From Paucibacter sp. B2R-40 (lineage in GTDB: Bacteria; Pseudomonadota; Gammaproteobacteria; Burkholderiales; Burkholderiaceae_C): a stretch of 64,000 nucleotides of DNA. A model generated the notes under the pieces. The model saw only the letters and a list, made by a program, of their open reading frames with translations, was not told the origin of the DNA and did not search any database. The number at the start of each line of letters is the position of its first letter. Positions within the stretch are counted from its first letter, which is position 1. The translations under genes and the position numbers were made by a program. Shown here in pieces: positions 48-44,881 of this stretch. The stretch spans positions 62,001 through 126,000 of the forward strand of contig NZ_JAJIRP010000011.1 of the NCBI RefSeq assembly GCF_025717555.1. Direction: 5' to 3'.

Positions 48-63
48 GGTGCGACGGCGCACG
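48..63. promoter_or_regulatory. Crp/Fnr-type palindrome upstream of arcD (distal copy)
   Basis: The sequence reads GGTGCG-ACGG-CGCACG, an inverted repeat with a 4-base spacer. It matches the motif TGTGCG-N4-CGCACA that recurs in other intergenic regions of this window. It ends 114 bases before the arcD start. The 6-4-6 layout resembles Crp/Fnr-family sites. Its function is inferred. Confidence 0.45.
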
Positions 64-89
64 CTGATGCCCAGACATAGATGGCCATC

Positions 90-105
90 TGTGCGGTATC
101 CAACA
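90..105. promoter_or_regulatory. Crp/Fnr-type palindrome upstream of arcD (proximal copy)
   Basis: The left half is a perfect TGTGCG, the spacer is GTAT and the right half CCAACA is degenerate. The centre is 42 bases (about four helical turns) from the centre of the 48-63 copy, and the site ends 72 bases before arcD. The same distance is seen in front of several other genes carrying this motif. Weak alone, better as part of the pair. Confidence 0.35.
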
Positions 106-177
106 GTCGAAGACCGCATGCCGCATGAAGATGGCGTTGCACTCAGCCGGACGCGCTGTGTCTGAACTGGAGCCTTC

Positions 178-1587
178 ATGTCACCTCTTGATGCAAGACC
201 CTCGGCCAAACTGGGGCTGCGCCTGCTGACCGCGCTGGTGATTGGCTCCATGCTGGGCAGTGGCATCTTCGGCCTGCCGCAAAACATGGCCGGCGGTGCC
301 GGTGCGGGTGCCATCCTGATCGGCTGGACCATCAGCGGGCTGGGCATGCTGATGCTGGCCCTGTGCTACCAGATGCTGGCCATGCGCAAGCCCGAACTCG
401 ACAACGGCGTCTATGCCTATGCGCGCGAGCTGGGCGGCGACTATGTCGGCTTCAACGCCGCCTGGGGCTATTGGGTCAGCGCCTGGATTGGCAATGTCGG
501 CTATCTGGTCGCTGCCTTCGGGGCGTTGAGCTACTTCTACCCCCTCTTCGGCGAAGGCAACACGCCGGCCGCCATCCTCGGCGCCTCCGGCCTGTTGTGG
601 CTGGTGCACGCCATGGTGCTGCGCGGCATCAAGGGCGCCGCCATGCTCAATGGCGTCGTGACCCTGGCCAAGCTGCTGCCGCTGCTGCTCTTCATTGTGC
701 TGGTGGCCCTGTCGTTTCAGCTCAAGGTCTTCGAGCTCGATTTCTGGGGTGGCCCCGAGCTGGGTTCGGTGCTTGCGCAAGTGAAGAGCACCATGCTGGT
801 GACGGTCTGGGTCTTCATCGGCATCGAGGGTGCCAGCGTCTATTCGGCCCGCGCGGCGCGGCGCGTTGATGTCGGCCGCGCCACCGTGATCGGCTTTCTC
901 GTCACGCTGGCGCTCTTGATGGCGGTGTCACTGCTGTCGCTGGGCCTGCTGACGCAGGCGGAGCTGGCGGGCCTGAAGAATCCGTCCATGGCCGGCGTGC
1001 TGGAGCGGGCGGTCGGCTCCTGGGGTGCGGTGCTGATCTATCTGGGGCTGATCGTGTCGGTGGGCGGCGGCTTCCTGGCCTGGACCTTGCTCGCTGCCGA
1101 GTCACTGTTCACGCCGGCCAATGCGGGTGTAATGCCCGCCTGGCTGGGGCGGCAAAACAGTGCCGGTGTGCCGGCCAATGCGCTCTGGCTCAGCAGCGCC
1201 ATGGTGCAGGCCTTTTTGCTGCTGACGCTGTTCTCCAAAGCCTCTTACCTGGCCTTGATCTCGCTGTCGACGGCGATGATTTTGCTGCCCTATTTGTTCA
1301 GCGCTTTCTACGGCGCTCTGCTGGTGCGCCGCGATGCCAAGCCCGCCCTGCGCATCGTCACAGCGCTGGCCGTCGCCTACTGCTTGTGGCTGCTCTATGC
1401 CGCCGGGCTCAAGTACCTCTTGCTCAGTGCCCTGCTCTATGCGCCCGGTGCGGCGCTGTATTTCTGGGCCAAGCGCGAACGAGGTGAGCCGGCCTTCAAG
1501 CGCCATGAAGGGCTGCTGCTGGCTGGCTTGCTGGGCTTGGCGCTGCTTGCCGCATGGATGCTCAGCTCGGGTCGGCTGGGTCTGTAA
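178..1587 (+). CDS. arcD: Arginine:ornithine antiporter of the APC family
   Basis: A 469-residue polytopic inner-membrane protein with about 12 hydrophobic segments. The N-terminal glycine-rich helix (GSMLGSGIFGLP, near residue 23) is typical of APC amino-acid antiporters. The family member next to arcA-arcB-arcC exchanges external arginine for ornithine made by the arginine deiminase pathway. The ATG follows GGAG in a plausible spacing, and the stop lies 27 bases before arcA, so the four arc genes probably form one operon with this gene first. A polyamine or other basic amino-acid antiporter would look the same in sequence; the operon decides for arginine/ornithine. Confidence 0.9.
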   Translation: MSPLDARPSAKLGLRLLTALVIGSMLGSGIFGLPQNMAGGAGAGAILIGWTISGLGMLMLALCYQMLAMRKPELDNGVYAYARELGGDYVGFNAAWGYWVSAWIGNVGYLVAAFGALSYFYPLFGEGNTPAAILGASGLLWLVHAMVLRGIKGAAMLNGVVTLAKLLPLLLFIVLVALSFQLKVFELDFWGGPELGSVLAQVKSTMLVTVWVFIGIEGASVYSARAARRVDVGRATVIGFLVTLALLMAVSLLSLGLLTQAELAGLKNPSMAGVLERAVGSWGAVLIYLGLIVSVGGGFLAWTLLAAESLFTPANAGVMPAWLGRQNSAGVPANALWLSSAMVQAFLLLTLFSKASYLALISLSTAMILLPYLFSAFYGALLVRRDAKPALRIVTALAVAYCLWLLYAAGLKYLLLSALLYAPGAALYFWAKRERGEPAFKRHEGLLLAGLLGLALLAAWMLSSGRLGL

Positions 1588-1614
1588 GTCAATCGTTATT
1601 TGAAGGGGTATCTG

Positions 1615-2838
1615 ATGACACCAGGACTGAATTCCGAAGTCGGTCGACTGCGCCAGGTGCTGGTCTGCCGGCCCGGTCTGGCGCAAAAACGCCTGACGCC
1701 GGCCAACTGCCACGAGCTGCTGTTCGATGACGTGCTGTGGGTGGCGCGCGCGCAGAGCGACCATGACGCCTTCACCTCGATGATGACCGAGCGCGGCGTC
1801 GAAGTGCTGGAGCTGCTTGACCTGCTGAGCGCGACGCTGGGCGACCCGCTCGCTCGCGCCTGGCTGCTGGATCGCAAGCTGGGGCCCAACTTCTACGACC
1901 CGGCCGGGGCCGAACAGCTGCGCCCCTGGCTCGAAGCCCTCCCCCCCCTACAGCTGGCCAATTATTTGATCGGCGGCCTGGCCCGCAGCGATCTGCCCTT
2001 CGAGCCGGTCGGCCTGCTCGGCGCTTGCAGCGGGCCGGCCGACTTGCTGCTGCCGCCCTTGCCCAATACCTTGTTCACCCGCGACAGCAGTTGCTGGGTC
2101 GGCAAGAGCCCCGTGCTGTGCCCGATGTACTGGCCGGCGCGCCGCCAGGAGATGCTGTTGACGGCGGCCGTTTACCGCTTTCACCCCTTGTTCGCGGCCC
2201 AGGCCGAGCCGCTCTGGGGCGACCCCGACAGCGATATGGGCTTGGCCACCCTGGAGGGCGGCGATGTGATGCCGCTGGGAAACGGCGTTGTGTTGATCGG
2301 CATGGGCGAGCGCACCGCGCCGCAAGCGGTCTGCCAATTGGCCGCACGCCTGTTCGCCAGCGGCGACGCCAGCCATGTGCTGGCCGCCCAGTTGCCCAAA
2401 TCGCGCGGCGCCATGCATCTGGACACCGTCATCACCTTCTGCGATGTCGATCTGGTGACGGTATTCCCCGAGATGGTGGACGCGATTCGCCTGCACAGCC
2501 TGCGACCGGGCAACAAGCCCGGCAGCGTCGATGTGCGCAGCGAGCATGGCGAGAAAGGCCTGTTGGACAGCTTGGCCAAGGCCTTGGGTCTGCCCCGGCT
2601 GCGCACGGTCGCTACCGGCGGCGATGCCTATGAGGCCGAGCGCGAGCAATGGGATGACGGCAACAACTTGCTGGCCCTGGCTCCCGGCGTGGTGGTGGCC
2701 TATGACCGCAATGTCTTCACCAACACGCGGCTGCGCAAGGCCGGTGTCGAGGTCATCACCATCCCCGGCGGCGAACTTGGGCGCGGGCGCGGCGGCAGCC
2801 ATTGCATGAGCTGCCCCATCACCCGAGATGAGATTTGA
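1615..2838 (+). CDS. arcA: Arginine deiminase
   Basis: A cytoplasmic enzyme of 407 residues, the normal family length, that hydrolyses arginine to citrulline and ammonia. Visible guanidino-group-modifying signatures are FTRD (near residue 150), EGGD, HLDTV and the C-terminal CMSCPI, which holds the catalytic cysteine about eight residues from the end. The ATG at 1615 is chosen over an in-frame TTG at 1600 because GAAGGGG lies six bases before it. It is followed after 22 bases by the carbamoyltransferase gene. Confidence 0.95.
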
Positions 2839-2860
2839 AACCCTAAGGACAGGAACCCCC

Positions 2861-3859
2861 ATGAGCTTCAACCTCCGCAACCGCAGCCTGCTGGACTTGC
2901 GCGACTTCCCGCCGCGCGCGATCCGCTTCTTGCTCGACTTGGCCGCCGAGCTCAAACGCGCCAAATATGCCGGCACCGAGCATCCGCGCCTGCAGGGCAA
3001 GAATATCGCGCTGATCTTCGAGAAAGCCTCGACCCGCACCCGTTGCGCCTTCGAGGTGGCCGTGCATGACCAAGGCGGCCATGTCACCTATATCGACCCG
3101 GTCGGCTCGCAGCTCGGCCACAAAGAATCGCTGAAAGACACCGCCCGCGTGCTCGGCCGCATGTATGACGGCATCGAGTACCGCGGTTTTCACCAAAGCG
3201 TGGTCGAGGACATAGCCCGTTACTCGCGCGTGCCGGTCTGGAACGGCTTGACCGACGAGGCCCACCCGACCCAGGTGCTGGCCGACCTCTTGACGATGGA
3301 AGAGTTCGGCGAGAAGCCGCTGCATGAGCTGAGCTTTTGCTATCTTGGCGACGCACGCTTCAATATGGGCTGCTCGCTTCTGGTGGGCGGCACGCAAATG
3401 GGCATGGATGTGCGCATCGCTGCCCCCCTGGCGCTGCAGCCACCGGCCGAGCTGGTGGAGCAGATGCGTGCGCTGGCCAAGACGACCGGCGCCCGCATCT
3501 GCATCACCGAAGACCCGCTTGCCGCCGTGGCCGGCGCGGACTTCGTCTATACCGATGTCTGGGTGTCCATGGGCGAGCCGGCCGAGGTCTGGAAAGCGCG
3601 CATTGATCAACTATTGCCCTTCCAGGTCAACGCCGCCTTGATGCAGGCGACAGCCAAGCCGCGCAGTTGCTTTATGCATTGCCTGCCGGCCCTGCACAAT
3701 CTCGACACCGAGCTGGGGCGCGAGATCCACAAGCTGCATGGTCTGAGCGAGCTGGAAGTAACGGACGAGGTGTTTGAGTCCGAAGCCTCGATCGTTTTCA
3801 GCCAGGCCGAAAATCGCCTTCACACCATCAAGGCGGTCCTGGTCGCCACCCTGGCATGA
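2861..3859 (+). CDS. arcB: Ornithine carbamoyltransferase (catabolic)
   Basis: A cytoplasmic enzyme of 332 residues that converts citrulline and phosphate to ornithine and carbamoyl phosphate in the deiminase pathway. The carbamoyl-phosphate site KASTRTR (near residue 55) and the ornithine-side FMHCLPALH motif are both present. The start at 2861 follows AAGGAC; an in-frame ATG at 2828 overlaps the arcA end and has no good ribosome site. The catabolic role is inferred from position between arcA and arcC, since anabolic ArgF shares these motifs. Confidence 0.93.
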
Positions 3860-3911
3860 GAGTCCGAAAGCTTTCTACTGCGCAACCGCCATGCGTCGTT
3901 GGCCGAATGCT

Positions 3912-3943
3912 CGGAATCCTCACGTACAGAAAGTACGTTCCGG
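3912..3943. repeat. REP-like imperfect palindrome between arcB and arcC
   Basis: An inverted repeat with arms CGGAA...CACGTAC and GTACGTTCCG around a short AGAAA loop, in the 151-base gap between arcB and arcC. Elements of this general form occur in intergenic DNA of many Burkholderiales (recalled, not searched). It could also act as an mRNA-stability hairpin that separates arcC expression from arcB. Confidence 0.55.
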
Positions 3944-4010
3944 TTCCTGCGCTTCGTCCGCCTAGCCTGCCGGCCGCTCGCTACAAAAGCTCTCGTCCTC
4001 TGGGCCTAAT

Positions 4011-4973
4011 ATGAAGATCGTCATCGCCATCGGCGGCAACGCCTTGCTCAAACGCGGCGAAGCGCTGAGTGCCGCCAATCAGCTGGCCAATATCCGGCTC
4101 GCCGCGCTGCAACTGGCCCGCGTGGCGGCGCAACACGCCGAGTTGGTGCTGACGCATGGCAACGGCCCGCAGGTCGGCCTGCTGGCCCTGCAAGCCAGCG
4201 AATATGCAGCCAGTCATTGCGATCTGCCCGCCTACCCGCTGGATGTGCTGGGCGCGCAGACCGAGGGCATGATTGCTTATTTGCTGGAGCAAGAGTTGAG
4301 CAATTTGCTACCGGCCGGACGTCAGGTCAGCAGCCTCTTGAGCCGCGTTGAAGTGGCGGCCGATGACCCCGCGTTTGCACATCCCACCAAACCGATAGGG
4401 CCGGTCTACAGCCAGGATCAATTGCAAACCATCGCGGCGGCCAAGGATTGGAAGCTGGCCAAGGACGGTGGCGGCTGGCGCCGTGTGGTTGCTTCGCCCA
4501 AACCGCTGCGTGTCTTGGGCTTGCCCTCGATACGCTGCTTGCTCGAGGGCGGTGTGGTGGTGATTGCCTGCGGCGGCGGCGGCATCCCGGTGGCCAAGCA
4601 GGCGGGTCGCACGGGCCTGCACGGCATCGAGGCGGTGATAGACAAAGATCTGTGCAGTGCCATGCTGGCCACCGAGTTGGACGCCGACTGCCTGATCATT
4701 GCCACCGATGTGGAGAGTGTCTTTCTCGATTGGGGCCTGCCCAGCCAGCGCGCGCTTGGCGAAGTGACGCCGCAGCAACTGGCCCAGCACAACTTTGCCG
4801 ATGGCAGCATGGGCCCCAAAGTGGCGGCCGCCTGCGCCTTCGTGAACGCGACCGGCCGACGTGCGGTGATAGGACCGCTGGCCAAGATTGAGGCCATGCT
4901 GGCCGGCCAGGCCGGCACTCAAATCAAAGTGGCCGCTCAGGCCGGCAGGCAGATCAAGGCAAGCTTGCCCTAA
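4011..4973 (+). CDS. arcC: Carbamate kinase
   Basis: A cytoplasmic enzyme of 320 residues, family-normal. It transfers the phosphoryl group of carbamoyl phosphate to ADP and so yields the ATP of arginine fermentation. The N-terminal AIGGNALLKRG and THGNGPQVG motifs, the mid-protein VVIACGGGGIPV and the C-terminal SMGPKVAAACAF are the amino-acid-kinase fold signatures. It ends the arc cluster. Its last 20 bases overlap the 3' end of the convergent lipoprotein gene, so the two transcripts are antisense there. Confidence 0.95.
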   Translation: MKIVIAIGGNALLKRGEALSAANQLANIRLAALQLARVAAQHAELVLTHGNGPQVGLLALQASEYAASHCDLPAYPLDVLGAQTEGMIAYLLEQELSNLLPAGRQVSSLLSRVEVAADDPAFAHPTKPIGPVYSQDQLQTIAAAKDWKLAKDGGGWRRVVASPKPLRVLGLPSIRCLLEGGVVVIACGGGGIPVAKQAGRTGLHGIEAVIDKDLCSAMLATELDADCLIIATDVESVFLDWGLPSQRALGEVTPQQLAQHNFADGSMGPKVAAACAFVNATGRRAVIGPLAKIEAMLAGQAGTQIKVAAQAGRQIKASLP

Positions 4974-9681: not shown

Positions 9682-10173
9682 TCAGGACTTGGGTTTGACG
9701 GTCAGCTGGTTATCCACCGCTTGCACGCCTTTGACGCCCGACGCGATTTCGCGCGCCCGGCCCACCGCTACCGCGTCGGCCGCCGTGCCGCGCAAGACCA
9801 CCCGCCCTTGGGTCGAGTCGACATTGATGCTGGAAGCCGTCAGCGCGGTGTCCCCCGCCAATCTGGCCTTGACCAAGGTGACGATGCCGGCGTCACTGAG
9901 ATCGGCACCCATTTTTTCGCGCATTTCCAGGGAAGCTTGCTTGACGTCTTGCACGGCGGCGCTGGTGGCTGAGGCAGCTTCAGCGGAGCCGCGCTGTACA
10001 TCGGCCTTCATGGCCTCGGACTGCTGCTCCACCCGGGCAATGCCGTCGTCGAGCTTCTTGCCGGGTGTGCGCGCGTCATCACCCTCTTTGCTGCAAGCGG
10101 CCAAGCTCAATGCGATGATGGCAGCGGCCAAGGCGCGCATGACCTGGGGGGAAGGGTTTTTAGCGATCTTCAT
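9682..10173 (-). CDS. BON-domain lipoprotein
   Basis: A 163-residue protein with a signal peptide and lipobox LSLAACS (near residue 26), a helical alanine-rich stretch (residues 50-90) and one BON domain at the C-terminus (LVKARLAGDTALTASSINVD ... VDNQL). BON domains occur in envelope stress proteins such as OsmY and may bind phospholipid. The start at 10173 follows GAGGAAA; upstream in-frame extension lacks coding character. It stands alone, with a Crp-like palindrome about 110 bases upstream. Confidence 0.8.
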   Translation of the reverse strand: MKIAKNPSPQVMRALAAAIIALSLAACSKEGDDARTPGKKLDDGIARVEQQSEAMKADVQRGSAEAASATSAAVQDVKQASLEMREKMGADLSDAGIVTLVKARLAGDTALTASSINVDSTQGRVVLRGTAADAVAVGRAREIASGVKGVQAVDNQLTVKPKS

Positions 10174-10282
10174 GGATTTCCTCGTTTGAACGACACCCTG
10201 CCAGCCTAGCCGGCACGGTGGCCCGAAGATGTGAGCCGGGGCCGCAAGTTCTTGTCGGACAGCGCCGACAAAGTGCCGGCTA

Positions 10283-10298
10283 TGTACGCTGGCGTACA
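10283..10298. promoter_or_regulatory. Perfect palindrome, variant of the Crp/Fnr-type motif
   Basis: TGTACG-CTGG-CGTACA has perfect six-base arms with a four-base spacer. It differs from the common motif TGTGCG-N4-CGCACA at one position per arm. It lies between divergent genes, 110 bases from the BON lipoprotein start and 116 from the 10415 gene. A TGTGCG half-site follows near 10313. Confidence 0.45.
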
Positions 10299-10414
10299 GA
10301 TGCCGCCACGAATGTGCGTTATGGTCAAGGTTCATTTCCAAACATCAGACCAGTTAGCTGGATGACAGACATAGCGTCAAGCTTGCATGACACCTTCAGT
10401 GACCCGACCAAACC

Positions 10415-10882
10415 ATGACCAGCCCAGAGAGTGATCAAACCGTGGCTTTCCTGGCCCAGCACTTGGATGCCGGCGCCAGCTCGGCGCAAATTGCCAAGCT
10501 GGTCTGCCGGGTTTGCCGAGAGATTGAGTTCGCCTTGGTGCCCATCGTGGGCCAGCGCGGCGTAGCCGCCTTGTTCGCTCGCAGCCTGCAGCTCAGTGCC
10601 AAGAGCCATCACTGGCTGAAGGATGCCAAAGTAGGTGCAGACAGCGACAGCGGCATCTGTGGCGGAGAAAACCCTGCAACTTCATCTGTCACCCCGGCAG
10701 CCTTGTGCACCATGATAGAGCGCCAAACCCGGCCAGAGGCAGCGGCCGGTGCCTGCTTGTTTTTGCAAACTTTTTGTGAGTTGTTGGCCAAGTTGGTGGG
10801 GCGCGCGCTCACCGAACGCTTGCTTCGCACCCCTTGGATTACTTTTTTAAGCGGCGCAGCCGCGCAGGACAACACGCAATGA
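10415..10882 (+). CDS. Unknown protein preceding a KaiC-like gene
   Basis: A 155-residue soluble protein, partly helical, with several cysteines (CRVCRE near residue 33). Not recognised. Its stop overlaps the start of the KaiC-like gene (ATGA at 10879-10882), so the two are translationally coupled and likely act together. The ATG has no clear ribosome site, so the exact start is uncertain. A regulatory or adaptor role for the KaiC-like protein is inference from position only. Confidence 0.6.
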   Translation: MTSPESDQTVAFLAQHLDAGASSAQIAKLVCRVCREIEFALVPIVGQRGVAALFARSLQLSAKSHHWLKDAKVGADSDSGICGGENPATSSVTPAALCTMIERQTRPEAAAGACLFLQTFCELLAKLVGRALTERLLRTPWITFLSGAAAQDNTQ

Positions 10883-12351
10883 GCAGCAAAGTAGCCATCC
10901 AACGTTTGCCCACCGGGGTGCCGGGCTTGGACCAAGTGCTAGGCGGCGGCTTGCCTGAGTTCTCCTTCAATCTGATCGCCGGCCAGCCCGGTTGCGGCAA
11001 GACGACCTTGGCGCACCAGATCATGTTCTCGCTCGCCACGCCGCAGCGCCCGGCGATCTACTTCACCGTGCTGGGCGAGCCGCCGATGAAGATGCTGCGC
11101 TACCAGCAGCAATTCGAATTCTTTGACAGCGAGCAGATCAACGATGCGGTGCGCTTCATCAACCTGTCCGAAGACGCGGCCAACGGCGATCTCGACCGTG
11201 TGTTGGCGCGCATCGGCGAGGCGGTGACGACCTATGAGCCAAGCTTGGTGTTTGTGGACTCATTCCGCTCGGTAATGATCGCCAGCGAAACCAACGGCAA
11301 CCCGCAAAGCCCGACCCACAGACTGCAGCAATTCGTGCAACAACTCGGCATGATGATGACGAGCTGGCAGGCCACCACCTTCTTGATCGGCGAGTACTTC
11401 ATCGAGACCGATGCCAATCCGGTCTTTACCGTCGCTGACGGCCTGATCTGGATGCGCCAAAGCGTGCAGCGCAATTCCATGGTGCGCAAGATCGAGATCT
11501 TGAAGATGCGCGGCCAACCTACGCTGCCGGGCTTGCACACCTTCAGAATCAGCAGCGCCGGCATCAATATCTTCGCCCCGGTCGGCCAGCCGAGCATTGC
11601 CGCAGATGCGGTCAAAACTGCCCATGCGCCAGCCACCGACACCCGCCTGCTGCTGGGCGTGCCCAAGCTCGACGAGATGCTGGGCGGCGGCTTGCCGCGC
11701 GGCTACTCGCTGCTGGTGGCCGGGCCCTCGGGCTCGGGCAAGAGCATTCTGGCGGCGGCCTTCCTGGCCGAGGGCGCGCGCTGCGGCGAAACTGGCGTGC
11801 TGGCGGCCTTCGAGCAGCGCCCCAGCCAGGCGCAGAACCGCATCATTGCCGATCTGGTGGCCAGCGGCAAAGTCGGCCTGGTCGACAGCCGGGCGCCGGA
11901 TCTCTCGATCGACGAGGTGATCGGCCTGCTGCTGAGTGAGGTGACCAGACTCGGCGCGACCCGGGTCGTGATCGATTCACTGTCCGGCTTCGAGCTGGCG
12001 ATCGCGCCGACCTTCCGTGACGATTTCCGCGAGTCCTTGGCGCGCCTGGTGCGTGCAATGGCGAACGCGGGTGTGACGATTCTGATGACTTCCGAGCTGG
12101 AAGACCGCTACACCGATCTGCGCTTCAGCCCCTACGGCACGGCTTTCTTGACCGACGCCATCATCGTGCAGCGCTATATCGAAATCGACAGCCGCTTGCG
12201 CCGCATGATGGCGGTCGTGAAGCTACGGGCCAGCGCACATTCGGACGAGTTGCGCGAGTTTCACATCGACGACCACGGCCTGCAAATTGGCGCCACCTTG
12301 GCCGACCAGGAAGGTCTGCTGGGCGGCCGGCCCCGCCACAAAGCTGACTGA
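10879..12351 (+). CDS. KaiC-like double RecA-type ATPase
   Basis: A 490-residue protein with two KaiC/RecA domains. Walker A motifs are GQPGCGKTT (about 35-43) and GPSGSGKS (about 281-288); Glu residues follow the expected strands (LGEPP; FEQRP). Each domain begins with a PTGVPGLDQVLGG or GVPKLDEMLGG signature. In the segment aligned with cyanobacterial KaiC S431/T432, this protein has Ala-Phe (YGTAFLTDA), so the clock phosphosites appear to be absent; the alignment is from memory. KaiC homologues outside cyanobacteria act in stress or signalling. It is coupled to the gene upstream and 11 bases from the GGDEF-kinase gene downstream. Start 10879 chosen for the ATGA overlap. Confidence 0.85.
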   Translation: MSSKVAIQRLPTGVPGLDQVLGGGLPEFSFNLIAGQPGCGKTTLAHQIMFSLATPQRPAIYFTVLGEPPMKMLRYQQQFEFFDSEQINDAVRFINLSEDAANGDLDRVLARIGEAVTTYEPSLVFVDSFRSVMIASETNGNPQSPTHRLQQFVQQLGMMMTSWQATTFLIGEYFIETDANPVFTVADGLIWMRQSVQRNSMVRKIEILKMRGQPTLPGLHTFRISSAGINIFAPVGQPSIAADAVKTAHAPATDTRLLLGVPKLDEMLGGGLPRGYSLLVAGPSGSGKSILAAAFLAEGARCGETGVLAAFEQRPSQAQNRIIADLVASGKVGLVDSRAPDLSIDEVIGLLLSEVTRLGATRVVIDSLSGFELAIAPTFRDDFRESLARLVRAMANAGVTILMTSELEDRYTDLRFSPYGTAFLTDAIIVQRYIEIDSRLRRMMAVVKLRASAHSDELREFHIDDHGLQIGATLADQEGLLGGRPRHKAD

Positions 12352-12362: not shown

Positions 12363-14021
12363 ATGGACGAGCTGCCAACTCCCCTGACGCCCACTGTGGC
12401 CAGCGCCGAGCAGGAACTGGCCCAGATCACCCAGCGCGTCGAAGCGATGCGGGCCGTGTTGGTGCGGCTGCTGCAAGACGTGGTGCGGGCGGAGAGTTTT
12501 CTCGAACACAGCCAAAGCGTGCAACTGCTGGAGGCTAACGAACAATTGGTGCTGACCACGCTGGATGCGCAGATCGACAGCGAATCGGCGCTGCAAGCGC
12601 TTGACGCTGCCGCCCGCACCAGCGGCCTGGACCCCTTGACGCAATTGGCCAACCGGGCCTTGGCCTTCGACCGCCTGGAGCAGGCGATTGCGCACGCCAA
12701 AAGGCAGGGCACGCAACTGGCCCTGCTGTTCGTGGACCTCGATAAATTCAAGCAGATCAACGATTCGGCAGGCCATGCCATCGGCGATCAGGTCTTGCAG
12801 CAAGTAGCTTCTTGCCTGCTGTCGGCGGTGCGAGAGTCGGACACGGTCAGCCGGCATGGGGGCGATGAATTCCTGATCTTGCTGGATGATCTGGTGCAAA
12901 TCGACGACGCCCTGGCCATCGCCGAGAAGCTCAAGGAAGCGCTGCGGGTGGCCCGCGCCAGCAATGTCGATTGGGCCGATTTGAGCGCCAGCATTGGCAT
13001 CAGCGTCTACCCCCGCGACGCCGACTCAGCCGACGCCTTGATCGCTTGCGCCGACCAGGCCATGTATATGGCCAAGCGCCAAGGGCCGGGTGGGATCTCC
13101 TTTTTTGTCGAAGACGCCGACCCGCTTGAGCTCTCGCCTGCAACTGCATCGAGCAAGTCGGCGGCGCCGGCGCCCTCATTGCCGGCGCTGCAACGCCAGT
13201 CGGCCGAGTTGGCGCAACTGCTGGCCAAGCAAGAGCAAAAGCATCTGCTCTTGCAAGAAGCGAATGAACAGCTGGTACTCGCGACGCTCAGTGCGCTGGA
13301 CTTGCAGACCGCAGCGGCCGCTGCACAACAACGCCAGCGTGAGTTCATGGCCGGCGTGGCGGCCGAGCTGAACAACCCGCTGTCACCGATCCGGATTGCC
13401 ATGGCCGCGCTGGGCCGGCCGCCCGACGCGGCCCCGCTGCTGCCCCATGCGCAGGACATGATGGCGCAGCAGGCCGCGCAGATTCGCGGCTTTGTCAGCG
13501 ACTTGCTCCATCCTGCGGATGCCGAAGAGCGAGGCAAGGCCAAACTGCTGCTGATGCTGCGGCCGCTGGATCTGTCGGCCCTGCTCGAACATTGCGCTCA
13601 GTTATGCCGACCGCTGCTGGATCAGCGCAGCCAACAATTGCTGCGCGAACAGCCGCCCGAGGCGTTGCGCGTACAAGGTGACGCGATGCGCCTGACCCAG
13701 GTCTTCAGCAATTTGCTCAGCAACGCCAGCCGCTACTCCCATGAGGGCAGCAGCATTCAAATGGACTTGCAGCGCTCGGACACGCATGCCCTCATCGGCA
13801 TCAGCGACACCGGCATCGGTATCAGTGCACAGGCGCTGGAAACGATTTTCGAGCCCTTCGGACGCGAGTTCCACGCGGTGGGTGCGCATGGCAGCGGCCT
13901 GGGGCTGGGCCTGACGGTGGTGCGAGAGATCGTCGAAGCGCATGGCGGCACGGTGCGGGCCAGCAGCGCCGGCATTGGGCAAGGCAGCCAGTTCTGGGTC
14001 ACCCTGCCGCTGACTGCTTGA
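12363..14021 (+). CDS. GGDEF diguanylate cyclase fused to a kinase module lacking the phospho-acceptor His
   Basis: A 552-residue soluble protein. Residues 1-85 are helical, 90-250 form a GGDEF domain with intact RHGGDEF active site and RxxD inhibitory site (RESD five residues before it), then a coiled linker and a histidine-kinase core (about 325-550). The ATP-binding part has N box (FSNLLSNASRYS), G1 (DTGIGIS), F (IFEPFG) and G2 (GSGLGLGL) motifs. In the dimerisation helix, the usual HELxNPL reads AAELNNPL, with alanine near residue 334 where the phosphorylated His belongs. The linker phrase EANEQLVL occurs twice, before and after the GGDEF domain. It probably makes c-di-GMP under control of the KaiC-like partner. 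Confidence 0.85.
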   Translation: MDELPTPLTPTVASAEQELAQITQRVEAMRAVLVRLLQDVVRAESFLEHSQSVQLLEANEQLVLTTLDAQIDSESALQALDAAARTSGLDPLTQLANRALAFDRLEQAIAHAKRQGTQLALLFVDLDKFKQINDSAGHAIGDQVLQQVASCLLSAVRESDTVSRHGGDEFLILLDDLVQIDDALAIAEKLKEALRVARASNVDWADLSASIGISVYPRDADSADALIACADQAMYMAKRQGPGGISFFVEDADPLELSPATASSKSAAPAPSLPALQRQSAELAQLLAKQEQKHLLLQEANEQLVLATLSALDLQTAAAAAQQRQREFMAGVAAELNNPLSPIRIAMAALGRPPDAAPLLPHAQDMMAQQAAQIRGFVSDLLHPADAEERGKAKLLLMLRPLDLSALLEHCAQLCRPLLDQRSQQLLREQPPEALRVQGDAMRLTQVFSNLLSNASRYSHEGSSIQMDLQRSDTHALIGISDTGIGISAQALETIFEPFGREFHAVGAHGSGLGLGLTVVREIVEAHGGTVRASSAGIGQGSQFWVTLPLTA

Positions 14022-14300: not shown

Positions 14301-14358
14301 GGGGAGACCTCTTGACGTGTTGGAAAAGCTCAGCGTATTGCGCCGGGCCGGCGCCGTC

Positions 14359-14374
14359 TGTATGCCAGCGCACG
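14359..14374. promoter_or_regulatory. Crp/Fnr-type palindrome, degenerate
   Basis: TGTATG-CCAG-CGCACG matches nine of twelve arm bases of the motif. It is 58 bases from the 14300 start and 72 from the 14447 start, distances like those of better copies. Confidence 0.35.
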
Positions 14375-14446
14375 GACGCTTTCGCTTTCGCCATTTAGCC
14401 TGTCAAGCTTCGAGTCTGCGGACTGATCAATGAAGGAAAAATAGCC

Positions 14447-15593: not shown

Positions 15594-15609
15594 TGTTCCG
15601 TAGCGCACA
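15594..15609. promoter_or_regulatory. Crp/Fnr-type palindrome before the Crp/Fnr gene
   Basis: TGTTCC-GTAG-CGCACA has a perfect right arm and a left arm with four of six matches. It ends 62 bases before the start of the Crp/Fnr-family gene at 15671, which would fit autoregulation. Confidence 0.45.
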
Positions 15610-15670
15610 TACAGCGCCAGCTTGGCGGCTTAGGCTGAGGCCTGCTTTCCATCCAGCTCAGGGAGTCGCC

Positions 15671-16522
15671 ATGTACAAGACCCAGCAACACAGCATCGAG
15701 AACCGCCCGCCCATGCGCAAGACCGGGCCGGGGCTTCAGTGGATAACGGGCTCTTCAGCTGGCAATTCAGCCGATGCAGCGGCCCTTGTTCAGCGCAATG
15801 GGCGGGTCAATTGCGGCCATGCTGCTGGCGCCCGAGCGGGCCAGATCGCCCGCTCACTGGGCTTGCTGCTCGAGCAGCTGCCGGTGCGCCGCCGCCTCGT
15901 GCATGCCGGCGATCTGGTGTTTGAAGCCGGCATGCCTTTCAATCAGCTCTATGTGATCAATTCGGGCAGCGTCAAGGTCGTCAATACAGCGGCTGACGGG
16001 CGCAACCAGGTCGTCGGCCTGCTGCTGCGCGGCGACTGGCTGGGCTTTGACGGCATTGCCAAGGGCCAGTACGGCTGCACGGCACAGGCGCTGGAGGTTG
16101 GCGAAGTCTGGGCCCTGCGCTATGACGAGTTGCTGCGCGCGGCCAGCAGCCACCCGCAATTGCTGATCGAGCTGCACACCGAAATGAGTCGCGCCATCAC
16201 GCGCGGGCGCGACGCCATGCTGTCGGTGTGCACGCTGCCGGTGGCGGCGCGCGTTGCGGAGTTTTTGCGTCAATGGGCCGAATCGCTGGCCGTGCGTGGT
16301 CTGCGCAATGACCAGATTATTTTGCGCATGTCGCGCGCCGAAATCGGCAACTATCTGGGCATGACCCTGGAGTCGGTCAGCCGCGCGCTCTCCAGCCTGG
16401 AGCGGGCCAAGGTGATCTGTTTCACCGAGCGGGGTCGGCGCCTGCTCCATATCCCTGACCCGCAGGCGCTGAGCGACTTCATCCAGGCCGAGGGCCAGGC
16501 AGCCGGCGCAACATTGCAGTGA
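15671..16522 (+). CDS. Crp/Fnr-family transcriptional regulator
   Basis: A 283-residue DNA-binding protein: cyclic-nucleotide-binding-like beta barrel (about residues 75-185, with FEAGMPFNQLYVINSGSVKV), dimer helix, and a C-terminal winged helix (SRAEIGNYLGMTLESVSRAL). The recognition helix keeps the E..SR pattern of Fnr. Unlike E. coli Fnr, the N-terminal region has only one cysteine (C48), so a classical [4Fe-4S] oxygen sensor seems absent; the ligand is unknown. ATG follows GGGAG. It lies just upstream of fumC (16 bases), so they may share a transcript. It is the obvious candidate to bind the recurring TGTGCG-N4-CGCACA sites. Confidence 0.88.
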   Translation: MYKTQQHSIENRPPMRKTGPGLQWITGSSAGNSADAAALVQRNGRVNCGHAAGARAGQIARSLGLLLEQLPVRRRLVHAGDLVFEAGMPFNQLYVINSGSVKVVNTAADGRNQVVGLLLRGDWLGFDGIAKGQYGCTAQALEVGEVWALRYDELLRAASSHPQLLIELHTEMSRAITRGRDAMLSVCTLPVAARVAEFLRQWAESLAVRGLRNDQIILRMSRAEIGNYLGMTLESVSRALSSLERAKVICFTERGRRLLHIPDPQALSDFIQAEGQAAGATLQ

Positions 16523-16538: not shown

Positions 16539-17954
16539 ATGAAGGCAACACGCAGCGAGATCGACAGCTTCGGCTCGATTGAAGTTCCGGCCGATGCCCT
16601 GTGGGGCGCGCAGACCGCGCGCAGCCTGATGTTCTTCAAAATCGGTCAGGCGGGTGCTCAGCCATATGGCCAGCGCATGCCGCTGGCCGTGATCCATGCG
16701 CTGGCCTGGGTCAAATGGGCGGCCGCGCTGGTCAACCGGGATTTGGGCTTGCTGGACGCCACCGAGGCTTTGGCCATCGCGGCGGCAGCGCAGGAGGTGG
16801 CGAGCGGCGCGCATGACGCGCAGTTCCCGCTCTCCGTCTGGCAGACCGGCTCGGGCACGCAAAGCCATATGAATGTCAACGAGGTGATTGCCAATCTCGC
16901 CTCGCAAGCCTTGGGCGGCGGCTTGGGCGAGCAGCGCTCCATCCACCCGAACGACCATGTCAATCTCGGCCAGTCCTCCAATGACGTCTTCCCCAGCGCC
17001 ATGCATGTGGCGGTGGCTCTGCAGGCCAAGCGGCAGCTGCTGCCGGCGCTGACCGAGCTGCAAGCGGCGCTGCTGGACAAGGCCGACGCATGGGCTACGC
17101 TGGTCAAGATTGGCCGCACCCATGGCCAGGACGCCACGCCGGTGACGCTGGGCCAGGAGTTTGCCGGCTATGCCACGCAGCTGCAGCTGTGCGAGGGCCA
17201 TCTGCGTTATGCGCTGCAGGCGGTGCACCGCCTTGCGATTGGCGGCACGGCGGTCGGCACTGGGCTGAACACGCATGCCGAGTTCGGCGCTCGGGTCGCC
17301 GCCCGGCTGGCGCAGCAATTGGAGCTGCCACTCACGCAAGCCGACAACTTGTTCGCCGCCATGGCCGGTCATGAGGCCTTGGTCGGCCTGCACGCCGGGC
17401 TCAAGATGCTGGCCATCGCCTTGACCAAGATCGCCTGCGATATCCGCCTGATGGGCGGCGGCCCACGCGCCGGTCTGGGCGAGTTGATCTTGCCCGCCAA
17501 TGAGCCGGGTAGCTCCATCATGCCGGGCAAGGTCAACCCCACGCAGATCGAAGCGCTGACCATGGTCTGCGCCCAGGTGATGGGCCATGACGCGGCGATC
17601 GGCTTTGCCGCCAGCCAAGGCCAGTTCGAGCTCAATGTCTACAAGCCGCTGATCATTCTGGACTGCCTGGACAGCCTGAGCCTGCTCAGCGAGGCGATGC
17701 AAAGTTTCAAGCAGCATTGCTTGCAGGGCTTGGCGGCGAATCCTGAGCGCATCGATGCATTGCTGCAATCCTCGCTGATGCTGGTGACCGCCTTGGTGCC
17801 GCATATCGGCTATGACCGCGCGGCGGCCATCGCCAAGCTGGCCCACCAAAACGGCCTGAGCCTGCGCAGCGCCGCCTTGGAACGGGGCGAAGTCAGCGCC
17901 GCCGACTTTGACAACTGGGTCGACCCGCAAGGCATGTTGGGCCCGGCAGTTTAG
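16539..17954 (+). CDS. fumC: Fumarate hydratase, class II
   Basis: A 471-residue cytoplasmic enzyme of the TCA cycle that interconverts fumarate and malate without an iron-sulfur cluster. The superfamily signature GSSIMPGKVNPTQ (near residue 325), the GSGTQSHMNVNEV and GRTHGQDATPVTLGQ motifs all fit FumC. Aspartate ammonia-lyase shares these motifs; length and the HMN/THG context favour fumarase. An oxygen-stable fumarase beside a Crp/Fnr regulator fits redox control. Confidence 0.9.
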   Translation: MKATRSEIDSFGSIEVPADALWGAQTARSLMFFKIGQAGAQPYGQRMPLAVIHALAWVKWAAALVNRDLGLLDATEALAIAAAAQEVASGAHDAQFPLSVWQTGSGTQSHMNVNEVIANLASQALGGGLGEQRSIHPNDHVNLGQSSNDVFPSAMHVAVALQAKRQLLPALTELQAALLDKADAWATLVKIGRTHGQDATPVTLGQEFAGYATQLQLCEGHLRYALQAVHRLAIGGTAVGTGLNTHAEFGARVAARLAQQLELPLTQADNLFAAMAGHEALVGLHAGLKMLAIALTKIACDIRLMGGGPRAGLGELILPANEPGSSIMPGKVNPTQIEALTMVCAQVMGHDAAIGFAASQGQFELNVYKPLIILDCLDSLSLLSEAMQSFKQHCLQGLAANPERIDALLQSSLMLVTALVPHIGYDRAAAIAKLAHQNGLSLRSAALERGEVSAADFDNWVDPQGMLGPAV

Positions 17955-17969
17955 GTGTGCTAACGCACA
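17954..17969. promoter_or_regulatory. Crp/Fnr-type palindrome after fumC
   Basis: GGTGTG-CTAA-CGCACA has a perfect right arm; read with shorter arms it is TGTGC-TAAC-GCACA, a perfect palindrome. It overlaps the fumC stop and is 182 bases before the ice-binding-like gene. Confidence 0.35.
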
Positions 17970-18150: not shown

Positions 18151-19029
18151 ATGCAAACCCATACCAGCACGTACAAGATTCACTTCATCGCTGCCACTTG
18201 CATCGCGCTACTCGGGCCCATCCCGGCGGTGGCTGCGTCCCTGCTGGCAAGCGCGCAAAGTTTTGCCGTGCTGGGGCATGAGACCGTGACCAACGCACAC
18301 AGCGCGCCCAACCCCAGCACGCGGGTCTATGGCGACCTGGGTGTCACGCCGGGTAGCTCGGTGACAGGCTTTTATCCGGACGGCGCGGTGTCCGGCGGCG
18401 CCATCCACATCAATGACGGCATTGCGCAATTGGCCTTGGCGGATACGCTGAGCGCCTATACAACGCTGGCGGGTCTACCCTCGGTGGCGAACCTGACTGG
18501 CCATGCGCTGGGCTCCTTGGGCTATCAAAGCTTGACGCCGGGCGTCTATCACTTCGACAGCTCGGCGCAGCTGACCGGCAACTTGGTGCTGGACTTCACC
18601 GGCAACCCGAATGGCACTTTTGTGTTCCAGATCGGCAGCAGCTTGACCGCGGCCAGCGACTCCTCGTTGCAAGTCCTCAATGGCAATTCGAACAGCGGCG
18701 TGTACTGGCAGGTCGGCAGCTCCGCCACGCTGGGCTTAGACAGCCAGTTTGCCGGCAACATCTTGGCCCTCGCCAGCGTCAGCCTGGATCCACGGGCGCA
18801 GATTCTGTGCGGGCGCGCTTTCGCCATCACCGGCGCGGTGACGCTGACCGACAACCTGATCTCCAGCAACTGCAGCGCTGAAGCTTTCGGCCATCAGCGC
18901 TTTGACTTCGGCAGCCAAGGCTTTAGCGGCGAACTGGCCACCGCAGTGCCGGAACCGAGCGCGCTCCTGCTCTTGACCTTGGGCGCAGCGGGGCTTGCAG
19001 CGTTCAGATTTAACAAGACCGGGCGCTGA
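18151..19029 (+). CDS. Ice-binding-like (DUF3494) secreted protein with PEP-CTERM anchor
   Basis: A 292-residue exported protein. After the signal peptide (cleavage near VAA, residue 28) comes a DUF3494/ice-binding-type beta-solenoid (about 35-245, with ILASAQSFAVLG-like start and repeated LTPGVYHF, TFVFQIGSSLT, AQILCGRAFA segments). The C-terminus is a PEP-CTERM sorting signal: VPEPSA, a hydrophobic helix, then a basic end, so an exosortase elsewhere should process it. Ice binding is the known activity of some members; adhesion or surface roles are also possible. Start 18151 follows AGGA. Confidence 0.85.
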   Translation: MQTHTSTYKIHFIAATCIALLGPIPAVAASLLASAQSFAVLGHETVTNAHSAPNPSTRVYGDLGVTPGSSVTGFYPDGAVSGGAIHINDGIAQLALADTLSAYTTLAGLPSVANLTGHALGSLGYQSLTPGVYHFDSSAQLTGNLVLDFTGNPNGTFVFQIGSSLTAASDSSLQVLNGNSNSGVYWQVGSSATLGLDSQFAGNILALASVSLDPRAQILCGRAFAITGAVTLTDNLISSNCSAEAFGHQRFDFGSQGFSGELATAVPEPSALLLLTLGAAGLAAFRFNKTGR

Positions 19030-19698: not shown

Positions 19699-19714
19699 CG
19701 TGCGTTGTTTCACT
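19699..19714. promoter_or_regulatory. Weak Crp/Fnr-type site before the CBS gene
   Basis: CGTGCG-TTGT-TTCACT: the left arm matches five of six bases and the right arm three of six. It is included because its 54-base distance to the CBS gene start equals that of stronger copies. Confidence 0.2.
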
Positions 19715-20421: not shown

Positions 20422-20437
20422 TGTTCGCTGCACCACA
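20422..20437. promoter_or_regulatory. Weak Crp/Fnr-type site before the 20522 lipoprotein
   Basis: TGTTCG-CTGC-ACCACA: the left arm equals that of stronger copies at 24923 and 43311, the right arm has four of six matches. It ends 84 bases before the lipoprotein start. Confidence 0.25.
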
Positions 20438-22526: not shown

Positions 22527-22542
22527 CGTGCGCTGGCGCACA
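22527..22542. promoter_or_regulatory. Crp/Fnr-type palindrome (copy 1 of a pair)
   Basis: CGTGCG-CTGG-CGCACA matches eleven of twelve arm bases. It lies between the divergent genes at 22447 and 22682, 80 bases from the former. Confidence 0.5.
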
Positions 22543-22564: not shown

Positions 22565-22580
22565 TGTGCGCAAACGCACA
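22565..22580. promoter_or_regulatory. Crp/Fnr-type palindrome, perfect copy
   Basis: TGTGCG-CAAA-CGCACA, a perfect palindrome with the four-base spacer. Its centre is 38 bases from that of 22527-22542. It ends 101 bases before the PRC-barrel gene. Confidence 0.55.
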
Positions 22581-22681
22581 GTGCCCACACAGCCCTTCAT
22601 TTAACTTGCTGGCAGAGCGTCGCTTCTCTCATTGCGGCGCTCGTATCAATCCGCCAATGAGACACCGAACTGGAGCAGCAC

Positions 22682-23155
22682 ATGAACTACGAAGAACGCG
22701 ACACCTACGGCATTTACCGCACAAATAATGGGTCAGGCACCGGCCTCGACGGCCAGTCCGTCGGCGGCTTCGACCCCGAAATTCATCAAGGCCCTGGCCC
22801 ACGCCTGATGGGCGCAAACACCTTGATCGGCAATGACGTCTGCAACCAGGAGGGCGTGGATCTGGGCGACATCAAGGAAATCATGCTGGACGTCAGCAGC
22901 GGCCGCATCAGCTACGCGGTGCTGTCTTTCGGTGGCTTTCTGAGCCTGGGCGAGAAGCTGTTTGCCGTGCCTTGGAGCGCCCTCAAGCTCGACACCGTGA
23001 ACAAGCGCTTCACGCTCAACATCGACAAGAACCGGCTGGAAGGCGCGCCTGGCTTTGACAAGGACAAGTGGCCGAATATGGCCGATTCCGAATGGGCGCT
23101 GGGCATCCATGCTTTCTATGGCACCCATCCCCACGGCGACACCTTGATGAACTGA
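22682..23155 (+). CDS. PRC-barrel domain protein
   Basis: A 157-residue soluble protein with a PRC-barrel (about residues 40-115: ANTLIGNDVCNQEGVDLGDI, then ISYAVLSFGGFLSLGEKLFAVPW). PRC-barrel proteins occur in RNA processing, photosynthesis and in stress clusters of Burkholderiales, where the role is unknown. GGAG precedes the ATG. It is 18 bases from the ABC transporter gene, so they may be cotranscribed. Confidence 0.85.
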   Translation: MNYEERDTYGIYRTNNGSGTGLDGQSVGGFDPEIHQGPGPRLMGANTLIGNDVCNQEGVDLGDIKEIMLDVSSGRISYAVLSFGGFLSLGEKLFAVPWSALKLDTVNKRFTLNIDKNRLEGAPGFDKDKWPNMADSEWALGIHAFYGTHPHGDTLMN

Positions 23156-24922: not shown

Positions 24923-24938
24923 TGTTCGCTAACGCACT
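24923..24938. promoter_or_regulatory. Crp/Fnr-type palindrome before the collagen-like lipoprotein
   Basis: TGTTCG-CTAA-CGCACT matches ten of twelve arm bases. It ends 69 bases before the start of the lipoprotein at 25008. Confidence 0.45.
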
Positions 24939-25007
24939 GAACCCTTCGCTGCCCCGCCCTAATCTCCACACCCATCCACTCGCAAACCCAAATTCCAAGG
25001 AACCCCC

Positions 25008-38242: not shown

Positions 38243-38285
38243 CGCTCGGTCTCCGTAAATATAAGTAGTTAGGACATTGCCGGGA

Positions 38286-39500: not shown

Positions 39501-39578
39501 CTCAGCCTCCGCCGGGCCGCCGCAGGGCGGCTGAGCGCCCGCTAGGCGGGCGATTGCGCAAAAATTTGAGGGCCAACA

Positions 39579-43167: not shown

Positions 43168-43310
43168 TGCTCAGGCAAGCGACGCGAAAGCGAGGCGAGC
43201 TGACTTGCTGTTGGTGCTTGGCATGATTCGAGACCTCTGCTGCTGCCACCACCGTTAACAGCCGGTGGCGGTTCGATGAGACGGTTTTAAGGGCTTGCGG
43301 CGGCGGCGTC

Positions 43311-43326
43311 TGTTCGACAGCGCACA
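43311..43326. promoter_or_regulatory. Crp/Fnr-type palindrome between divergent genes
   Basis: TGTTCG-ACAG-CGCACA matches eleven of twelve arm bases. It ends 85 bases before the 43412 gene and is 144 bases upstream of the efflux operon. Confidence 0.5.
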
Positions 43327-43411
43327 CGCGACAGCAGCGACAAGGCAGACCCTTGCGCGCATGAGCCGCAGATATCGCGGCGAAGCGGGCTGCACAGGCT
43401 TATGCTGAGCG

Positions 43412-43999: not shown

Positions 44000-44026
44000 G
44001 TACTTGGCCGAATCCGTGACTTGCAA

Positions 44027-44539
44027 TCACGCATGCTGACCAAGACCTACTGCACGGCGCGCGTGATAGGGCACAAATTCATCGGCAGTTTCCTGAGCCC
44101 GCGCCACCTGCAGCACAGCGTCCAGATCCGACCTCAGCATATCAACGGGGCTGTGTCCTTCAAGTTGCGCGTGAGCGGCCGCAAACCAAGCCGCCAAGGC
44201 CCAGCCCGACCAAACCGTCGGCAGCTCGGCGCGCACGGCTTGTGCCGCCGCATTCAAGGCCAGGTCATTCGCTTGGAACTGGAACATCGGGATCCACAGA
44301 CTGGCGCGCCATTCAAAACCAAAGACCTGGCCGGTGTAGATCCGTTGGGCCAGGCTGGTGGCCGGGCCAGGCTGATGTTCCTCCAGCAAGCGCGCCACGA
44401 TCTCAGCCGGCGCCGTGCCGCCGGTTGCGCGGAAAGCCTCGAGCAAGGCGATGAAACCGCGCCCACTGGGCACTTCGAGATCGGCGGCCTGCGGGCCCGC
44501 GTAGGCCGGCAAGAACGCGCTGACGCTGGCGCGGCTCAT
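44027..44539 (-). CDS. Unknown protein with antitoxin-like C-terminal segment
   Basis: A 170-residue soluble protein. The C-terminal stretch GHSPVDMLRSDLDAVLQVAR resembles the toxin-binding domain of MbcA/ParS/Xre-type antitoxins (DUF2384), and the N-terminal half has no clear HTH. Its start overlaps the stop of the 64-residue gene upstream by four bases. No RES-type toxin is seen nearby, so an antitoxin role is speculative. Confidence 0.6.
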   Translation of the reverse strand: MSRASVSAFLPAYAGPQAADLEVPSGRGFIALLEAFRATGGTAPAEIVARLLEEHQPGPATSLAQRIYTGQVFGFEWRASLWIPMFQFQANDLALNAAAQAVRAELPTVWSGWALAAWFAAAHAQLEGHSPVDMLRSDLDAVLQVARAQETADEFVPYHARRAVGLGQHA

Positions 44540-44730
44540 CGTGCGCCCTTGTGGTCTTTTTGACCGGTGTTCTTGTGCCGGCCCAAAACCTCGTTCGGTT
44601 CGCTCGGTTGGGTCAGGGCAGCTGGCCCGCTCTGCCCTGACTGCGGCTTACTCGAGACCTTTGATTGCAGCAGATTCGCAGGGCGCCCGGGCACAGGTGA
44701 GAGCCAGGGGCTTTGGTACTTTTTGTTCAT
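44536..44730 (-). CDS. Small basic unknown protein
   Basis: A 64-residue Ser/Pro/Gln-rich protein beginning MNKKYQSPWLSP, with GGAG six bases before its ATG. It is coupled by ATGA to the 44027 gene. Two Crp-like palindromes lie 73 and 136 bases upstream. No family recognised. Confidence 0.5.
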   Translation of the reverse strand: MNKKYQSPWLSPVPGRPANLLQSKVSSKPQSGQSGPAALTQPSEPNEVLGRHKNTGQKDHKGAR

Positions 44731-44802
44731 CAAGAACTCCAATCAAAGGTTGAGGCGAACAGCTTTGGAAACTGCAGCGTAATCAGAGCCCGCTCCTTCG
44801 AC

Positions 44803-44818
44803 TGTGCGACAGCGCACA
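44803..44818. promoter_or_regulatory. Crp/Fnr-type palindrome, perfect copy
   Basis: TGTGCG-ACAG-CGCACA, a perfect palindrome, 72 bases from the minus-strand gene at 44730. Confidence 0.55.
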
Positions 44819-44865
44819 TGGTCCGAGCAAGCCTGCCATGCACCTCTAACTTCAAATTCGTTCAG

Positions 44866-44881
44866 CGTGCGCTGTCGCACA
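44866..44881. promoter_or_regulatory. Crp/Fnr-type palindrome before the BON gene
   Basis: CGTGCG-CTGT-CGCACA matches eleven of twelve arm bases. It ends 58 bases before the triple-BON gene. Its centre is 63 bases (six helical turns) from that of the perfect copy at 44803, so each of the two divergent genes has its own site. Confidence 0.55.

Follow-up and report, generated by a model that had tools for sequence, protein, structure and literature searches.

What is the palindrome that recurs between the genes of a 64,000-nucleotide stretch of the Paucibacter sp. B2R-40 genome, and which protein reads it? The window, as we call this whole stretch, spans positions 62001 to 126000 of contig C3 (NZ_JAJIRP010000011.1); coordinates with the prefix C3 refer to the contig, and bare ones refer to the window. 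An earlier note had described a recurring TGTGCG-N4-CGCACA palindrome, and all 14 sequences that it listed are present. It had taken them to mark a Crp/Fnr-type regulon, a view that stands as regards the fixed four-base spacer, the placement upstream of genes, and half-sites unlike those of Fnr and Crp, but not as regards the proposed binder, a Crp/Fnr-family protein encoded at 15671 (C3:77671). Our analysis indicates that the repeated palindrome is, very likely, a genuine regulatory site from which stress-protein genes are switched on. With a probability of roughly 0.78, the palindrome (approximately gTCTGTGCGCTAGCGCACAGAc, core TGTDCG-N4-CGHACA) is the operator of a different Crp/Fnr subfamily, here called LGVRR, which would act as a class II activator of stress-protein genes and usually of its own gene. 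The site, its spacing, its position upstream of genes, its conservation, its co-occurrence with the regulator, and its fixed distance to a -10-like element are observed features; physical binding, and activation rather than repression, we infer from them.

With up to three mismatches allowed, the bare consensus matches the window 51 times, compared with 74.6 times (standard deviation, 8.7) in shuffled sequence. There is no enrichment at this level, and weak matches picked by eye alone are therefore no evidence. Stricter patterns behave differently. The exact consensus occurs three times in the 5.61-Mb genome (reversed-pattern control, 0), always on contig C3 and within 50 kb (C3:57454, 84565, and 106803). 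Genome-wide, at most two mismatches give 364 matches versus 257 for the reversed-pattern control, and the extended pattern TNTGTDCGNNNNCGHACANA with at most one mismatch gives 18 versus 1, with 8 of the 18 on C3. In the 118 kb around the window, 22 places match with at most two mismatches, and 16 of the 19 located between C3:39819 and 106866 are intergenic.

We then scanned these 118 kb with a matrix whose training set was 80 loci from other species. It gives 19 matches of at least 12 bits, a threshold picked during training and also used in cross-validation; the reversed sequence gives 2, and 30 first-order Markov resamplings average 1.3, with 4 as the highest count. Eighteen of the 19 are intergenic, whereas only 14.5% of the bases are (binomial 1e-14). 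Thirteen of the 14 sites listed in that note score 16.0 to 25.2 bits; the copy at 19699 scores -1.5 bits and was dropped. The 13 supported sites are intergenic by site centre, although 17954 touches the last base of the preceding gene. They lie 59 to 188 nucleotides (nt) from the nearest downstream start, a wider range than the 54 to 116 given before; gene starts come from a small purpose-made gene caller trained on window genes, which missed or invented some short genes. On C3 outside the window, matrix sites are located at C3:39819, 43704, 56020, 57454, and 61103. A further 16 (13 intergenic, 3 genic) lie in ten stretches from other parts of the genome that were selected because they matched the motif.

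The motif is not confined to this species. The 80 named loci come from a scan with an alignment (A1) of 24 homologs and are the best-scoring 80 of its 594 candidates; they are mainly from Burkholderiales, with some from Thiocystis, Dyella, Rhodanobacter, and Thermomonas. Related species share sites, and counts of loci or genomes are thus not independent draws. In a motif-free count of all 6-mer inverted repeats with spacers of 0 to 14 in the intergenic DNA of these loci (runs of N dropped), GTGCGC-N2 and TGTGCG-N4, which are one site, rank first and TGTTCG-N4 next. When genic DNA is included, other repeats rank equally high, such as CTGGCT-N7 and CAGCAG-N12, which we take to be coding repeats. 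The four-base spacer seen by the earlier note is indeed fixed: with s = 4, there are 67 intergenic and 3 genic copies of TGTDCG-Ns-CGHACA, whereas every other s between 0 and 12 totals 0 to 2. In the refined matrix, which reads gTCTGTGCGCTAGCGCACAGAc, the first core base is T (67%), C, or G and the fourth is G, T, or A. With a cut-off of 12 bits, this matrix recovers 313 sites, 285 of them intergenic, from 77 of the 80 loci and 10 from reversed sequence, and split-half cross-validation gives 179 and 137 matches versus 7 and 7 controls. In a phylum-wide sample, 18 of 28 new loci have a match of at least 10 bits (35 matches; control, 3). Four of them (L199 to L202), from a class other than that of the window and with regulators 69 to 73% identical, carry sites of 21.7 to 26.4 bits before the regulator.

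Closer to home, the congeners G003, G007, G012, and G010 mostly retain the sites upstream of orthologous genes: the distances stay similar while the letters change. The site at 10283 reads TGTACGCTGGCGTACA here, TGTGCGCTAGCGCACA in G007, and TGTGCGCTGGCGCACA in G010, where its distance is similar (101 versus 110 nt) and there is no ortholog of the 15671 gene; a plasmid search with window positions 10200 to 10420 gave no match. For 15671, the upstream site is weaker in two relatives, at 14.3 and 12.7 bits, and strong, at 24.0 bits, in a third. No counterpart of the gene downstream of 17954, 43311, 44803, or 44866 turned up in the congener stretches examined. Two minus-strand neighbours of 43311, 44803, and 44866, each found in one congener, have no site. 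Since a training locus (L145) probably comes from the G010 genome, this congener is not independent of the matrix.

Which protein, then, reads the site? About 2 to 4.3 kb upstream of the window lie three tandem paralogous Crp/Fnr genes, C3:57663, 58489, and 59360 (the trio spans C3:57663-60052, or L017:15663-18052); in several congeners, too, two or three stand next to one another. Their recognition helices read VRREGVT, VRREGVT, and VRRVGVT, the subfamily pattern being LGVRR(E/V)GVT, and an exact copy of the site, C3:57454, lies 194 nt before the C3:57663 start. The C3:57663 protein has a C-terminal Crp-type winged helix-turn-helix (Pfam HTH_Crp_2, 9.5e-14, above the cut-off) and shares with its homologs an N-terminal cyclic-nucleotide-binding-like beta roll and a long dimer helix, as expected of Crp/Fnr proteins. 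No NCBIfam model covers it; the only hit is NtcA_cyano, at 21.6 bits versus a cut-off of 245. The cyclic AMP (cAMP) pocket of Crp includes E72, R82, and S83; by eye, the equivalent of E72 is not conserved in the LGVRR alignment (region GISLFMGG..TPSRA). Inspection by eye also revealed no N-terminal cysteine cluster. Among 33 orthologs, C142, C219, and C221 are invariant and C153 is conserved in at least 90%. One homolog (L069:1501-2184, genome G023) lacks in the alignment the four residues right after VRREG; an adjoining site is TGTTCGATATCGAACA.

Sites accompany this subfamily. Within 400 nt upstream, 64 of 78 LGVRR homologs have one, at a density several-fold above the flanks, and 87 of 288 site-bearing target genes are members of the regulator cluster. 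Homologs of C3:57663 are present in 22 of the 59 genomes searched (its own included); within the genus, exact sites occur in 6 of 9 genomes with a homolog and in 0 of 9 without. Across 200 sampled genomes of the order, 65 have an LGVRR homolog (E value of 1e-40 or better), and the motif exceeds its control by at least 5 in 35 of these 65 versus 5 of the 135 others. As a control, 25 generic Fnr-type loci gave 3 matches in all (reversed control, 1), whereas 30 LGVRR loci (L057 to L086, some overlapping) gave 56 matches in 26 loci. From this placement, co-occurrence, and control, we conclude that the palindrome is probably read by the LGVRR relative of Crp/Fnr encoded just outside the window.

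How the site might act is suggested by its distance to the promoter. On 68 of the 323 sides that face a gene (21%), a TANNNT hexamer begins 21 nt past the site; other offsets average 1.1. The site would therefore be centred near -41.5, as for a class II activator; Crp takes the same class II placement at -41.5. The spacing of the -10-like hexamer supports this placement relative to the predicted transcription starts.

Several observations weigh against the reading of the palindrome as an LGVRR-bound activator site. A -10-like hexamer at the expected offset is found on just 21% of sides, so that other promoter layouts or weak -10 elements would have to be common; neither side of the site before C3:57663 carries such a hexamer at this offset. 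Three of the 80 loci have no site (L175, L184, and L190), and 10 of the 28 phylum-sample loci have no match at 10 bits (L198, L206, L209, L214, L216, L218, L219, L221, L223, and L224), five of them with homologs of 55 to 74% identity. Of the seven homologs at 37 to 43% identity (L218 to L224), two have a match of at least 12 bits. Thirty of the 65 homolog-bearing genomes of the order show no motif excess, and five genomes without a homolog do (G044, G049, G053, G168, and G226). In G010, the best match before its own regulator scores 6.0 bits, which is no good site. Site density is also raised in the kilobases just downstream of the regulator, perhaps owing to its paralogs and divergent neighbours.

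Other explanations must account for the same data. A chance or compositional origin in a GC-rich genome would agree with the lack of enrichment of the bare consensus at three mismatches, but it is refuted by the spacing specificity, the cross-species matrix, the congener conservation, and the low reversed-sequence counts, and we give it practically no weight. The same holds for the idea that the sites are operators of PhaR (AniA), the regulator of poly-3-hydroxybutyrate. Its Sinorhizobium sites are likewise TGTGC...GCACA palindromes and include ACATTGTGCGGCGCACAAAGT (PMC12542648), yet PhaR is a different protein, the half-sites of ACATTGTGCGGCGCACAAAGT are three bases closer (13 bp in all), and PhaR operators were rejected on finding no copy of TGTDCG-N1-CGHACA in the 80 loci. 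The 15671 protein, favoured by the earlier note, is a more serious candidate, being a Crp/Fnr protein with a site 62 nt before its own gene and with at least one site at all five loci of the gene and its orthologs. Compared with the 3 matches at 25 generic Fnr loci, however, the latter result makes 15671 look like a regulated gene. Moreover, 15 of 17 genomes with an LGVRR homolog and no 15671 ortholog carry sites beside the LGVRR homolog, on which ground we reject 15671 as the sole binder, and the 10283 site is kept in G010, which lacks the ortholog. Matches to the protein occur in 33 of the 59 genomes, close ones (69 to 83% identity) in its own and four others; the remainder, at best 34 to 39% identical, we take to be generic Fnr. 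Its helix, TLESVSR, resembles the E-SR of Fnr, and a TTGAT-type site is therefore predicted for it. No TTGAY-N4-RTCAA box is found in the window, and the one in the 118 kb (C3:31033) is outside it, on which ground Fnr boxes were discarded as the operator. By eye, the 15671-16522 product has no Fnr-style N-terminal cysteine cluster. That it is the protein binding the palindrome seems very unlikely to us, although it may also bind some of the sites.

It is slightly less plausible still that another nearby regulator travelling with these loci binds the site and that the LGVRR protein is merely a target. A mixed signalling cluster is present in 42 of the 80 loci and supplies 20 targets; when 10 of its 73 members were scanned, 9 gave families, namely, GGDEF proteins, histidine kinases, receivers, one OmpR-type regulator, and one sigma-54 activator. 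Yet only part of this cluster binds DNA, and it is absent from 38 of the 80 loci while 77 have sites. A symmetric 16-bp site at -41.5 is Crp/Fnr geometry, and the genome-wide motif excess follows the LGVRR protein, which a second factor always travelling with that protein would still fit. A different objection leaves the binder in place: the same regulator might be a repressor, or an activator at some promoters and a repressor at others. Most sides, including both sides of the site before C3:57663, have no -10 at offset 21, as this would allow, but the single sharp peak at that offset is class II activator spacing and only 21 of 374 site-to-start distances are below 40 nt; we regard repression, full or at some promoters, as unlikely. 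Activation through LGVRR binding thus remains the reading that we prefer.

The operator has known relatives. Crp binds TGTGA-N6-TCACA, which is likewise a 16-bp palindrome, has its half-sites equally far apart, and shares the TGTG...CACA ends; in the palindrome studied here, a variable fourth base (G/T/A) is followed by C-G at positions five and six. Crp has R185 at the helix position where LGVRR has E. TGTGA-N6-TCACA is also the site of CgrA of Rhodospirillum (PMC4681086). Among the closest solved sequences to the LGVRR protein (E value, 3e-6) is GlxR of Corynebacterium (PDB 4cyd, 4byy), a cAMP-bound actinobacterial protein of the same fold, with 15 to 16% identity over the structure alignment; the two share an R-E pair in the helix, and LGVRR has E where GlxR has K. 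The Fnr/Anr operator TTGAT-N4-ATCAA has the N4 spacer, and its proteins have the fold, seen here, but its half-site differs, no such box is in the window, and the LGVRR protein appears by eye to lack the N-terminal cysteine cluster. The 16-bp dyad, fixed spacing, and upstream placement are those of Crp/Fnr operators, and the arms (TGTDCG versus TGTGA or TTGAT) depart from the standard half-sites, as the earlier note had observed. CooA-type half-sites were set aside as well.

The 80 loci hold 201 non-regulator targets and 862 non-targets. Genes free of N, made up of whole codons, and shorter than 1,800 nt numbered 189 and 811, respectively, and 130 of each were drawn at random for Pfam. The sampled targets are rich in BON (13), CsbD (7), PRC-barrel (6), and DUF4398 (6), whereas the non-targets have 2 CsbD and 2 PRC and, because the Pfam tables list 25 families, at most 2 each of BON and DUF4398. 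DUF3309 is no richer in targets (4 versus 4). This set resembles general-stress genes, which suggests that the regulator responds to a stress signal. Probable targets in the window (Table 1) are BON genes (9682 and 44940), a KaiC-type operon (10415), and genes for a PRC-barrel protein (22682), an antiporter (178), the Fnr-like protein (15671), and an ice-binding-like protein (18151), with several of no known identity.

Table 1. Predicted regulator sites, -10-like hexamers, and neighbouring genes in the window. Partners in the arginine deiminase operon were named by eye from their first residues rather than by family search.
Feature	Position	Strand	Score (bits)	Remark
Regulator site	48..63		16.0	before arginine/ornithine antiporter gene (178)
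Regulator site	90..105		20.2	before antiporter gene (178); identical 16 letters upstream of G007 ortholog
Arginine-ornithine antiporter	178..1587	+		first gene of probable arginine deiminase operon (178-4973); probable target
BON-domain protein	9682..10173	-		probable target of 10283 site
Regulator site	10283..10298		25.2	between divergent genes; kept in 4/4 congeners examined
-10-like TATGGT	10320..10325	+		21 nt after 10283 site
155-aa (amino acid) protein of no known identity + KaiC-type ATPase	10415..12351	+		probable target operon
GGDEF/histidine kinase gene	12363..14021			after KaiC-type operon
-10-like TACGCT	14332..14337	-		21 nt after 14359 site, minus-strand direction
Regulator site	14359..14374		24.3	kept in 2/4 congeners, those where downstream gene found
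-10-like TAGCCT	14396..14401	+		21 nt after 14359 site
Regulator site	15594..15609		21.2	62 nt before Fnr-like gene (15671)
-10-like TAGGCT	15631..15636	+		21 nt after 15594 site
Fnr-like Crp/Fnr protein (P0002)	15671..16522	+		probable target, probably not binder
Regulator site	17954..17969		23.3	before ice-binding/PEP-CTERM gene (18151-19029)
Regulator site	20422..20437		18.9	kept in sole congener of 4 where neighbouring gene found
Regulator site	22527..22542		19.9	first of pair before PRC-barrel gene
Regulator site	22565..22580		20.4	exact consensus; second of pair before PRC-barrel gene
-10-like TAACTT	22602..22607	+		21 nt after 22565 site
PRC-barrel protein	22682..23155	+		probable target
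Regulator site	24923..24938		21.1	kept in 2/4 congeners, those where downstream gene found
-10-like TAATCT	24960..24965	+		21 nt after 24923 site
Regulator site	43311..43326		22.6	before 195-aa gene of no known identity (43412)
-10-like TACGCT	44776..44781	-		21 nt after 44803 site, towards called gene 264 nt off
Regulator site	44803..44818		19.4	exact consensus; before BON gene (44940)
Regulator site	44866..44881		20.3	59 nt before BON gene (44940)
Three-BON-domain (OsmY-like) protein	44940..45590	+		probable target

Elsewhere in the genome, one C50 site precedes a gene that, by eye from its sequence, resembles that of a PRC-barrel protein. A second cluster of five sites (C1:866092-870123, L235) precedes, again as judged by eye, an oleate-hydratase-like gene, a short-chain dehydrogenase, and small exported proteins. 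The island on C3 also contains a single predicted open reading frame of about 2,875 aa (C3:45031-53658, L017); a gene of similar length, a likeness by length only, is part of a cluster that 10 of the 80 other loci share. Window positions 52001 to 64000 have a GC content of 0.54 to 0.60, versus 0.62 to 0.67 in the remaining window, and are possibly a foreign segment beside the island.

Among the matches listed in the open-licence literature, no paper describes the site or its regulon, although the slash in Crp/Fnr may have caused some to be missed. PMC5343134 does not match the terms sought; the letters matching the motif in PMC4505428 and the CGCACA matches shown in PMC5398030 are primers. The lxa locus of Burkholderia cenocepacia is a stress-gene island with a suspected Crp/Fnr-type regulator, BCAM0049, called Anr/Fnr-like (PMC6127331, PMC3759415). 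It resembles the island here by description only, and the word motif occurs in neither paper. The Crp/Fnr architecture is thus known, whereas the DNA code and regulon are, as far as we have seen, undescribed.

Under the model that we propose, a Crp/Fnr-fold subfamily with an LGVRR(E/V)GVT recognition helix, represented in this genome by the three tandem paralogs C3:57663, 58489, and 59360, would read the operator approximating gTCTGTGCGCTAGCGCACAGAc (core TGTDCG-N4-CGHACA). A dimer bound about 41.5 bp before the transcription start would switch on stress-protein genes (BON/OsmY, CsbD, PRC-barrel, and DUF4398/OmpA) and, in most cases, the gene of the regulator itself; in this genome, its targets would further include the KaiC operon, a DnaJ gene, and the gene for the arginine/ornithine antiporter. 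In a broader form, for which we see even odds, the LGVRR subfamily would command a large undescribed regulon through a DNA code of its own. Autoregulated and working as a class II activator, it would drive a programme of envelope and general-stress genes not only in Burkholderiales but also in other Gammaproteobacteria and in one or more further classes of Pseudomonadota. This programme would be to these bacteria what the general stress response is to Alphaproteobacteria, and the conserved cysteines of the regulator may serve in sensing. Our results supply a proposed DNA code, target list, and activation geometry for a common unnamed Crp/Fnr group, and they open the way to direct tests of how these bacteria control their CsbD, BON, and PRC-barrel stress genes.

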